Part shown: piece after piece, positions 4,972 through 8,419 of the stretch
How positions within the stretch are numbered: the stretch's first letter is position 1
Layout of the letters: the number at the start of each line of letters is the position of its first letter
Assembly (NCBI RefSeq): GCF_013408305.1
Contig: NZ_JACBZS010000001.1
Location: 1,178,001 to 1,242,000 of the forward strand
Direction: 5' to 3'
DNA: 64,000 nucleotides
Source: Naumannella cuiyingiana
Lineage (GTDB): Bacteria; Actinomycetota; Actinomycetes; Propionibacteriales; Propionibacteriaceae
Notes under the pieces: generated by a model
What the model saw: only the letters and a program-made list of their open reading frames with translations
Database searches by the model: none
Told to the model about the DNA's origin: nothing
Made by a program: the position numbers and the translations under genes

Positions 4972-5523
4972 TCAGTCGCCGGTCGCGCCGTCGATCGACT
5001 CCCGGAGCAGATCGGCATGACCCGCATGCCGGGCGTACTCCTCGATCAGGTGCACCAGCACCCAACGCAGGCTGATCGGCCCCTCGTCCTTCGGCCGGGC
5101 GCGGACGACCAGGTCCAGGCCGCCCTCGGTCAGCGCGCGATCGAGAGTGCGATCCGCACTGTGGACGGACTGGTCGTACCAGACGAGAAGCTGACCCGGA
5201 TCATCATCGGCCGCGCTGTGGAACTCCCAGTCCGGGTCGTCGTCCCAGGGTGCATCGTCGAACGGCGCCATCGGCGGCTCGCCGGTCAGCCGCTGCCCGA
5301 GCCAGCCGTTCTCGACCAGCGTGAGGTGCTTGATCAGCCCGCCGAGGGTCAGGTCGGAGGGCCCGAGCCGGGCGGCCAGCGCCTCGCGGTCGAGCCCCTC
5401 GACCTTGCGGCGGATGACCGCGCGGTAGAAGTCCAGGAAACCGCGCAGGGTGGCCAGCTCGTCCGCGGTCGTCGGCGGCTCGATCAGCGAGGTCGACTCG
5501 GTCAGCGGGGCAGGCTCGGTCAC
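4972..5523 (-). CDS. DinB/DUF664 family protein, probable mycothiol transferase
   Basis: 183 residues from GTG 5523; a longer reading would run into Gly/Ala-rich intergenic sequence. The DinB four-helix fold is indicated by GLIKHLTLVENGWLGQRL and the C-terminal HLIEEYARHAGHADLLRE. Together these supply the three histidines that bind metal in DUF664/DinB proteins. In actinobacteria this family includes mycothiol-dependent S-transferases and uncharacterised detoxification enzymes; the substrate here is unknown. Palindromic repeat copy 1 lies 58 nt upstream. Confidence 0.8.
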   Translation of the reverse strand: MTEPAPLTESTSLIEPPTTADELATLRGFLDFYRAVIRRKVEGLDREALAARLGPSDLTLGGLIKHLTLVENGWLGQRLTGEPPMAPFDDAPWDDDPDWEFHSAADDDPGQLLVWYDQSVHSADRTLDRALTEGGLDLVVRARPKDEGPISLRWVLVHLIEEYARHAGHADLLRESIDGATGD

Positions 5524-5580
5524 GAGGCCAGCATCGCACCTCCCGCCACCGGCCCCGGCCCCGGAGCACCCGCCACCCAT

Positions 5581-7069: not shown

Positions 7070-7978
7070 TCAGACCTTCTGGATCTGGGCGAACGTCAGG
7101 TCGACCGGGGTCTCCCGGCCGAGGATCTCGACCAGGGCCTTCAGCCGCTGGCTGTTGGCATTGATCTCGGTGATCGTGGCATGGACGCCGGCGAACGGCC
7201 CGTCGACGACCATCACCGAATCGCCCTCGGCGTAGTCGGCGACCTCGACCTTCTTCTTCGACTTCTTCTGCTTGCCGTCGGAGGTCGCGGTGGCCGCGGC
7301 AATCACCGACGGGGCGAGCATCTTCTCCACCTCGTCGATGCTCAACGGCACCGGCGAAGTGGCGTGGCCGACGAAACCGGTCACCGACGGCGTGTGCCGC
7401 ACGGCGGCCCAGGACTCGTCGGTCAGATCCATGCGTACCAGCACATAGCCGGGCAGCACGGTCCGCTTCACCGTCTTCTTGGCGCCGTTGCGGATCTCGG
7501 TGACCTCTTCGGTCGGGACCCGCACCTCGAAGATGAAGTCCTCCATGTTCAGCGAGGTGACGCGGTTCTCGAGGTTCTGCAGCACCCGGTTCTCCATCCC
7601 GGAGTAGGTGTGCACCACGTACCAGTCGCCGATCTTGGACGACAGCTCCTCGCGAAGCTCGGCGAGCGCCTTCTCCGCGGCGTCGTCGTCCTCGGCATCC
7701 TCGTCCTCGGAGTCCTCCGGCTCGTCGACGCTGAGGTCGATCTCGACGCCGTCGTCCTCGCCCGAATCGTCCGGGGCGCCGAGGTCGATCCCGGTGTCGC
7801 CGGAGTCGGAATCGCTGACCGGCCCGAGGTCGATCTCGATGTCGTCGTCGGCGGGGTCGTCGTCGGCGGGCTCGGCCGGTGCGCCGAGATCGATCTCGGG
7901 CTCGGCGCTCGCCTGCTCGTCGGTATTCGTCTGCGGATCGAGCTCGTCGGCCACTGCTTCCCTTTCGTTGTCGCTCAT
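7070..7978 (-). CDS. nusG: Transcription termination/antitermination factor NusG with long acidic repeat extension
   Basis: 302 residues. The NGN domain starts at about residue 117 ([22 protein letters not shown]) and the KOW domain ends the protein ([25 protein letters not shown]). NusG links RNA polymerase to Rho or the ribosome. The unusual part is the first 115 residues, a very acidic tract with four spaced copies of an IDL(G) motif: EIDLG at 28, EIDLG at 48, GIDLG at 63 and EIDL at 79. A short helix ([10 protein letters not shown]) leads into NGN. The start ATG 7978 overlaps the secE stop (TGATG). Confidence 0.95.
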
Positions 7979-8391
7979 CAGCCGAACAACCTCAACAGCA
8001 AGGTCCCGTACCCGAGGTCGAGCAGGCTGGTCACGGTGATCATGAAGACGACGAAGATCAGCACCACCACGAAGTACTGCTGCCACTGGCTGCCACTCGG
8101 CCAGACGACCTTGCGCAACTCGGCGACGCACTGCTGGATGAAGCGGATCGGGCCGATCCGCTCGGGGCCGTCCTTGTCCTTGGACCTGGACTTCGACTTC
8201 CGGGTGAGGGCCTTGCCGTCGGAATCGTCGTCGGCGTCGGGCGCACTGCGACGCTTGGGCATCGTGGCGCGCGTGCGCACCGCAGTCCCGCCGCGGGCCT
8301 CGCTCTCACCCTCGGGCGCGGATTCGGGGTCCGCAACGTCAGCGTCGGTGTCCGGCGTCTGGTCCGGATCCTCCCGCTTGTCGTCTGCCAC
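7978..8391 (-). CDS. secE: Preprotein translocase subunit SecE
   Basis: 137 residues from GTG 8391, which is preceded by AAAGGAAAT. The N-terminal 75 residues are charged and low in complexity (acidic, then Lys/Arg/Ser-rich). The conserved SecE core follows ([21 protein letters not shown]) with one C-terminal membrane helix ([19 protein letters not shown]). SecE clamps SecY in the protein export channel. It is translationally coupled to nusG by TGATG, and lies downstream of tRNA-Trp as in other actinobacteria. Confidence 0.96.
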
Positions 8392-8419
8392 CTGATTTCC
8401 TTTGCTTCGCCGTCTCATG

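Follow-up and report, generated by a model that had tools for sequence, protein, structure and literature searches.

What does a long acidic arm that carries four copies of one short motif do on an otherwise normal NusG? The question is raised by a nusG gene within the window, i.e., the 64,000 nucleotides of Naumannella cuiyingiana DNA analyzed here, for which a preliminary description had reported a 115-residue acidic extension with regularly spaced IDL(G) motifs resembling short linear binding motifs. The reading that we favor, with a probability of about 55%, is that the motif array binds in trans, by avidity, to a putative protein that works with RNA polymerase during elongation.

The gene product and its acidic arm

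Judged from its sequence, the protein is NusG. It scored 192.2 bits against the NusG model TIGR00922 (cut-off 135.7), with residues 119–302 covering positions 1–172 of the 172 in the model, and Pfam assigned PF02357 to residues 118–221 with 98.5 bits; hence the extension precedes a true NusG, as the preliminary description had held. The KOW model PF00467 matched residues 251–276 with 22.1 bits, just below its cut-off of 22.3. Both NGN and KOW were normal in an AlphaFold2 model, the KOW strands lying at residues 254–301 (block pLDDT 84–95), and the best matches in a structure search were NusG chains. An identity as RfaH was rejected (59.6 bits against an RfaH cut-off of 144.5). The gene order is secE-nusG-rplK-rplA, with the genes for SecE, L11 and L1 adjoining nusG and a tRNA-Trp gene beyond secE; the host genome is 3.5 Mb. 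The best named relatives of the protein belong to Propionibacteriaceae, e.g., Microlunatus and Enemella. In known NusG proteins, the NGN domain binds RNA polymerase.

Several features of the surrounding genes were also observed. The secE stop codon and the nusG start codon overlap at 7976–7980 (TGATG, minus strand), suggesting translational coupling, and SecE itself (7978–8418) has an N-terminal extension of approximately 90 residues, first acidic and then basic, ahead of its Pfam domain. A gene for a mycothiol-S-transferase (MST/DinB-like) is located at 4972–5580, beyond the L1 gene.

The first 117 residues of NusG contain 47 Asp/Glu and four Lys/Arg. The IDL triplets begin at residues 29, 49, 64 and 80, so that the motif positions reported previously (28, 48, 63 and 79) are confirmed together with the acidic extension, and shuffling the residues of the arm 200,000 times never produced four IDL. 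The reported range of 7633–7978, approximately residues 1–115, is correct in its coordinates; the motif-bearing arm, however, occupies only about residues 1–92 of it, with a predicted helix at residues 94–114 beyond (Table 1). This helix falls within a stretch that, by consensus, is common to other actinobacteria, and the M. tuberculosis counterpart is modelled from residue 33 in structure 8e74 (model residue 103). Using a 44-sequence alignment, AlphaFold2 left the arm without structure; residues 1–90 are predicted to lack secondary structure (pLDDT 47–59), as is expected of a short linear motif in a disordered region. A second model, of the Enemella protein and built with 17 family sequences, likewise showed an unstructured arm, and neither of the two models docked the motifs anywhere (block pLDDT 38–59).

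Table 1. Positions of nusG and its features in the window.
Feature	Coordinates	Strand	Basis or comparison
nusG coding region	7073..7978	minus	302 residues by translation; stop codon extends to 7070
Acidic arm, residues 1-92	7703..7978	minus	translation; predicted disordered, block pLDDT 47-59
Motif 1 EIDLG, residues 28-32	7883..7897	minus	translation
Motif 2 EIDLG, residues 48-52	7823..7837	minus	translation
Motif 3 GIDLG, residues 63-67	7778..7792	minus	translation
Motif 4 EIDLS, residues 79-83	7730..7744	minus	translation
Pre-NGN helix, residues 94-114	7637..7699	minus	AlphaFold2 model
NGN domain, residues 118-221	7316..7627	minus	PF02357
KOW domain, ~residues 249-302	7073..7234	minus	PF00467 and modelled strands 254-301
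KOW loop G264-V265	7184..7189	minus	T-L in other actinobacteria compared; E. coli D143-F144
KOW L286	7121..7123	minus	all others compared have F; F165 in E. coli
KOW D293	7100..7102	minus	most others have E; E172 in E. coli

Distribution of the motif array

To describe the prevalence of the array, a core was defined as [ILVF][DN][LF], and cores within the acidic stretch were counted if they were more than four residues apart. The family sample comprised the nusG loci of 122 of the 183 Propionibacteriaceae genomes with a NusG match; most came from the better-scoring matches to a query that included the arm, and 11 were added from lower-scoring ones. Sixteen named family loci that overlap partly with the 122 were kept out of the count. 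At least two separate cores were present in 120 of the 122 loci, the species of one genus not being independent of each other, and such members occurred in all 28 genera read; thus the array is conserved in relatives of the window protein. The exceptions, L313 and L320, have one clear core each, and a 29th genus gave no NusG match. When the family arms were shuffled, an average of 5.35 of 122 reached at least two separate cores.

Outside the family, with Kribbella set apart, none of 128 actinobacterial loci (119 distinct arms) had at least two separate cores: 0/60 among named loci, mostly Nocardioidaceae, 0/54 in a class-wide set, 0/8 in family f48 and 0/6 among further f2 loci. One locus was also taken from each of 27 other families; all 26 that could be parsed possess an acidic extension, in agreement with the earlier statement that such extensions occur in actinobacteria, and none has at least two cores. 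Based on this sampling, the motif array is specific to Propionibacteriaceae and not class-wide. A wider core gave at least two copies in 121/122 family, 3/128 other and 12/34 Kribbella loci, and a count of overlapping matches over the whole acidic stretch gave 122/122, 1/128 and 24/34, respectively. The separate-core counts were preferred since the overlapping count can score a single INLDF twice. With overlaps counted, there were 432 core matches, whereas 200 shuffles gave 57 at most, a count made with automatic start codons, by which the outer arm was lost in 3/4 Kribbella loci.

Anatomy and conservation of the motifs

Among the 107 family arms with an assigned start (26 genera), a slightly wider core yielded between two and five merged copies per arm, and 70 arms had three. 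The consensus is D-D-[FVI]-E-I-[DN]-L-[GD], in many cases with F-G after it. The copy nearest the N-terminus typically reads D-D-[FVI]-E-I-D-L-G; among the subsequent copies, I/L-[DN]-L-D-F-G is frequent. About 44 residues separate the last copy from the start of NGN. The regularity of spacing noticed in the single sequence holds for the family: the mean distance between copies is 17.1 residues (SD 5.2), and 92% of the distances fall within 13–21 residues versus 28% under random placement. Hydrophobic residues make up 48% of the positions inside the motif zones and 9% outside, a difference due partly to how the zones were constructed.

The motifs are also better conserved than the sequence between them. 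Over 436 within-genus pairs, identity was 0.746 in the motif and 0.422 in the linker, a contrast to be taken as indicative because the mask is set by the cores of only one member of each pair. In the pair from the window's own genus, 11 of 12 motif residues were kept versus 37 of 82 linker residues. The proposal that these are short linear binding motifs is therefore supported by recurrence, spacing and conservation over the linkers, with binding itself a prediction.

Low-complexity drift from codon repeats could draw on the direct repeats within the arm DNA, which are 68–79% alike, and on the bias of the motif Leu codons to CTC. We give this explanation almost no credence and rejected it: the shuffles never reproduced the four IDL, and the motifs are conserved over 28 genera while the linkers diverge. 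A signal at the DNA level was considered because the palindrome GAGATCGATCTC is a possible codon sequence for EIDL; it was rejected since synonymous variants exist at all three IDL codons, and conservation is therefore at the protein level. As an observation on codon usage, the ratio of CTC to CTG before G is 119:36 in the motifs compared with 241:331 in the NusG core.

A further explanation is that acidity alone, through solubility or nucleic-acid mimicry, is the function of the arm and that the IDL cores are incidental. Arms of other families do have a similar charge, the mean net value being −29.1 in Propionibacteriaceae and −28.4 at 64 other actinobacterial loci. However, those other families keep the charge without a motif array, so charge alone does not explain the array, and we consider a purely electrostatic arm improbable. 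Predicted disorder, cores embedded in acidic sequence, a copy number that may vary and a spacing that is controlled are traits for which multivalent short linear motifs are the most likely interpretation, although motifs conserved in this way could also serve self-association or contacts in cis.

An altered KOW face in the same family

Alignment of the NusG core revealed six family-specific columns, four of them in KOW. The comparison took the 118 of 121 family loci and the 83 of 118 other loci that passed the parser and a length limit. Among the 118 family sequences, position 264 is G in 117, 265 is V in 116, 286 is L in 96 and M in 22, and 293 is D in 110; the same positions are T, L, F and E in 83/83 of the others. 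A pattern-based repeat found L or M at the position of E. coli F165 in 101/101 family sequences and F in 116/116 others, leaving out the 21 of 122 family and two of 118 other loci in which the KOW pattern was unmatched; the positions of T264 and E293 vary in a few of the 116. Accordingly, the window NusG has L286 in place of the E. coli contact residue F165. We take F144, the counterpart of V265, to belong to the S10/Rho face of KOW.

The loop formed by I164, F165 and G166 makes key contacts of NusG with Rho, and Rho-binding residues are lost in RfaH, according to PMC7593976; S10 binds the same KOW region, as stated in PMC7819879. The window protein is like RfaH in departing from the I164-F165-G166 sequence. 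It is unlike RfaH in that it scores as NusG and keeps the I and G positions, F165 being the only one of the three loop residues to differ.

If the KOW face has changed, a matching change might be visible in S10 or Rho. No family-specific column was found among approximately 99 S10 columns (15 versus 15 sequences); a coevolving S10 was thus rejected, and the change of the KOW face has no clear counterpart in S10. The Rho core, compared between 22 family and 21 other sequences (three of 46 loci were unparsed), differed in five columns by substitution and, in addition, by a gap in the tail. One column is clean, with A at core position 32 in 22/22 family sequences and V (20) or L (1) in the others. 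The remaining four are partial; one of these has V at the position of E. coli C202, and V occurs also in 5/21 of the others. Rho residues around C202 presumably lie near the NusG contact. For none of the five columns was contact with NusG apparent, and a coevolving Rho core was likewise rejected.

In the N-terminal insertion of Rho, inspection by eye showed a short motif resembling [DE]xVGxRLxAL in a number of family genera, e.g., at L294, L295 and L298, and further at L301, L303, L304 and L363. A fixed pattern of this type matched 4/22 family and 0/21 other Rho sequences, and the motif is not evident in the Rho of the window's own genome.

Docking in cis and the array of Kribbella

The family-specific KOW face (positions 264, 265 and 286) speaks for the main rival to our reading, namely that the motifs bind their own KOW, or NGN, and mask KOW until a partner displaces them. 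Autoinhibition by domain contact has been reported for Thermotoga NusG and for RfaH in PMC7819879. Both AlphaFold2 models left the arm undocked, a result with which docking in cis is still compatible. It also counts against this rival that a contact in cis needs no multiple copies, and that Kribbella combines an array with an unchanged KOW. We consider this rival unlikely.

The Kribbella proteins (34 loci, L030, L033, L051, L058 and L381–L410, with 31 distinct arms) share with the window NusG the same order of parts and acidic-hydrophobic patches in the arm. They differ in that their array is of another kind and is situated near the N-terminus, far from NGN. The motifs recognized by eye (DEFDVS, DLDLDF, DDLFA and DPFADLD) lie roughly 130–165 residues ahead of NGN, and at least two separate cores of the family type were present in 7/34 loci. 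KOW has FATL and F in 34/34 loci, which demonstrates that an array can exist where KOW is unaltered. Since the sampled f48 and f2 relatives are without an array, either arrays arose twice or they were lost in some lineages. In Propionibacteriaceae, the arm and the KOW change each appear to have arisen once, on a single branch, and their association thus amounts to a single case (n = 1).

Comparison with other proteins

M. tuberculosis NusG (8e74, 8eos) resembles the window protein in its NGN-KOW core, a related pre-NGN stretch and an acidic N-terminus, and differs from it in its canonical KOW residues, as judged by alignment. The modelled chain in 8e74 runs from residue 33 to 154, and its N-terminus is therefore unmodelled. 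The plain acidic extensions of the other sampled families, Kribbella apart, are without an array of separate cores. The NusG homologue Spt5 of eukaryotes has an acidic unordered N-terminus before NGN, as described in PMC7819879 and PMC6391919; the likeness to the arms is one of description only.

Another likeness is to eukaryotic acidic activation domains, in which hydrophobic residues are also embedded in an acidic disordered region. The rule given in PMC10550315 calls for a 39-residue tile with a charge of −9 or lower, at least seven W/F/Y/L residues and a balance term. It was passed by 53/107 family arms versus 2/64 other actinobacterial arms, while the arm of the window protein, with three W/F/Y/L in its best tile, fails it. 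The acidic exposure model of the same source is the closest description of how the arm could work, and it serves as an analogy only because the window's own arm fails the tile rule. The likeness is in possible working, and no common ancestry is claimed.

The same comparison bears on the suggestion that NusG is concentrated in transcription clusters through association of its motifs, either among themselves or with acidic-hydrophobic tails of other kinds. Regular hydrophobic stickers separated by acidic spacers are what is observed in the arms, and the exposure model is related to the concept of stickers and spacers in PMC10550315. The high net charge would oppose self-association, however, and mere stickiness would not require so narrow a consensus; such clustering is, in our estimate, a poor bet.

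Short conserved motifs at the N-terminus would fit, in principle, a handle for a chaperone, a protease adaptor or a modifying enzyme that sets the level or state of NusG. If the handle were a general one, more proteins should carry it. The pattern [DE]I[DN]LG occurs at 27 places in the window's own genome, two in nusG and one in the antisense reading of one of these two, and none of the remaining 24 lies in an acidic arm as judged by eye; because it concerns one motif form, this is a weak argument. The pattern [DE]I[DN][LF]DF gave 14 matches in 18 family genomes, five of them in the nusG of four genomes; the remaining nine fall in different proteins or frames, and by eye none of these is part of an acidic arm. 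This pattern caught nusG in only 4/18 genomes, and the two patterns together cover only part of the motif forms. We regard such a handle as highly improbable.

Proposed working of the arm

Binding in trans remains the preferred reading, and we infer that it would involve a protein, avidity provided by copy number and a partner within the coupling or termination machinery served by KOW. The preliminary description had named RNA polymerase, Rho, the ribosome or chaperones as possible partners; the one pointer to the coupling or termination machinery is an indirect one, the change of the S10/Rho face of KOW in the same family. In the proposed mechanism, the arm would be a flexible acidic tether, joined through the helix to the NGN domain that binds RNA polymerase, and would present a single type of short hydrophobic ligand motif several times over. 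The acidic linkers would keep the I, L and F side chains of the motifs exposed and apart. Each copy would bind weakly by itself, and the copies would act jointly by avidity at one or more sites on the partner, which would work with the elongating polymerase, most plausibly as part of the coupling or termination machinery. A bolder proposal is that in Propionibacteriaceae the KOW link to S10 and/or Rho has been weakened or re-aimed, through L or M at the F165 position and V at the F144 position, and the tandem motif arm is now the main coupling or termination contact; we hold this to be rather unlikely. A search of mainly open-licence literature found no description of the motif array or of the KOW change.

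With a tandem motif arm present throughout the family, and a KOW contact face that has changed as well, NusG would possess a third interaction module. The arm also provides a short peptide that is immediately usable for fishing its receptor. Should binding of S10 or Rho be weaker owing to the KOW change, Propionibacteriaceae would show naturally to what limits NusG coupling and termination can be rewired; and if the weakening or re-aiming of KOW in favor of the arm is true, the family uses a multivalent disordered peptide, and not a folded KOW interface, to link polymerase with its partner.
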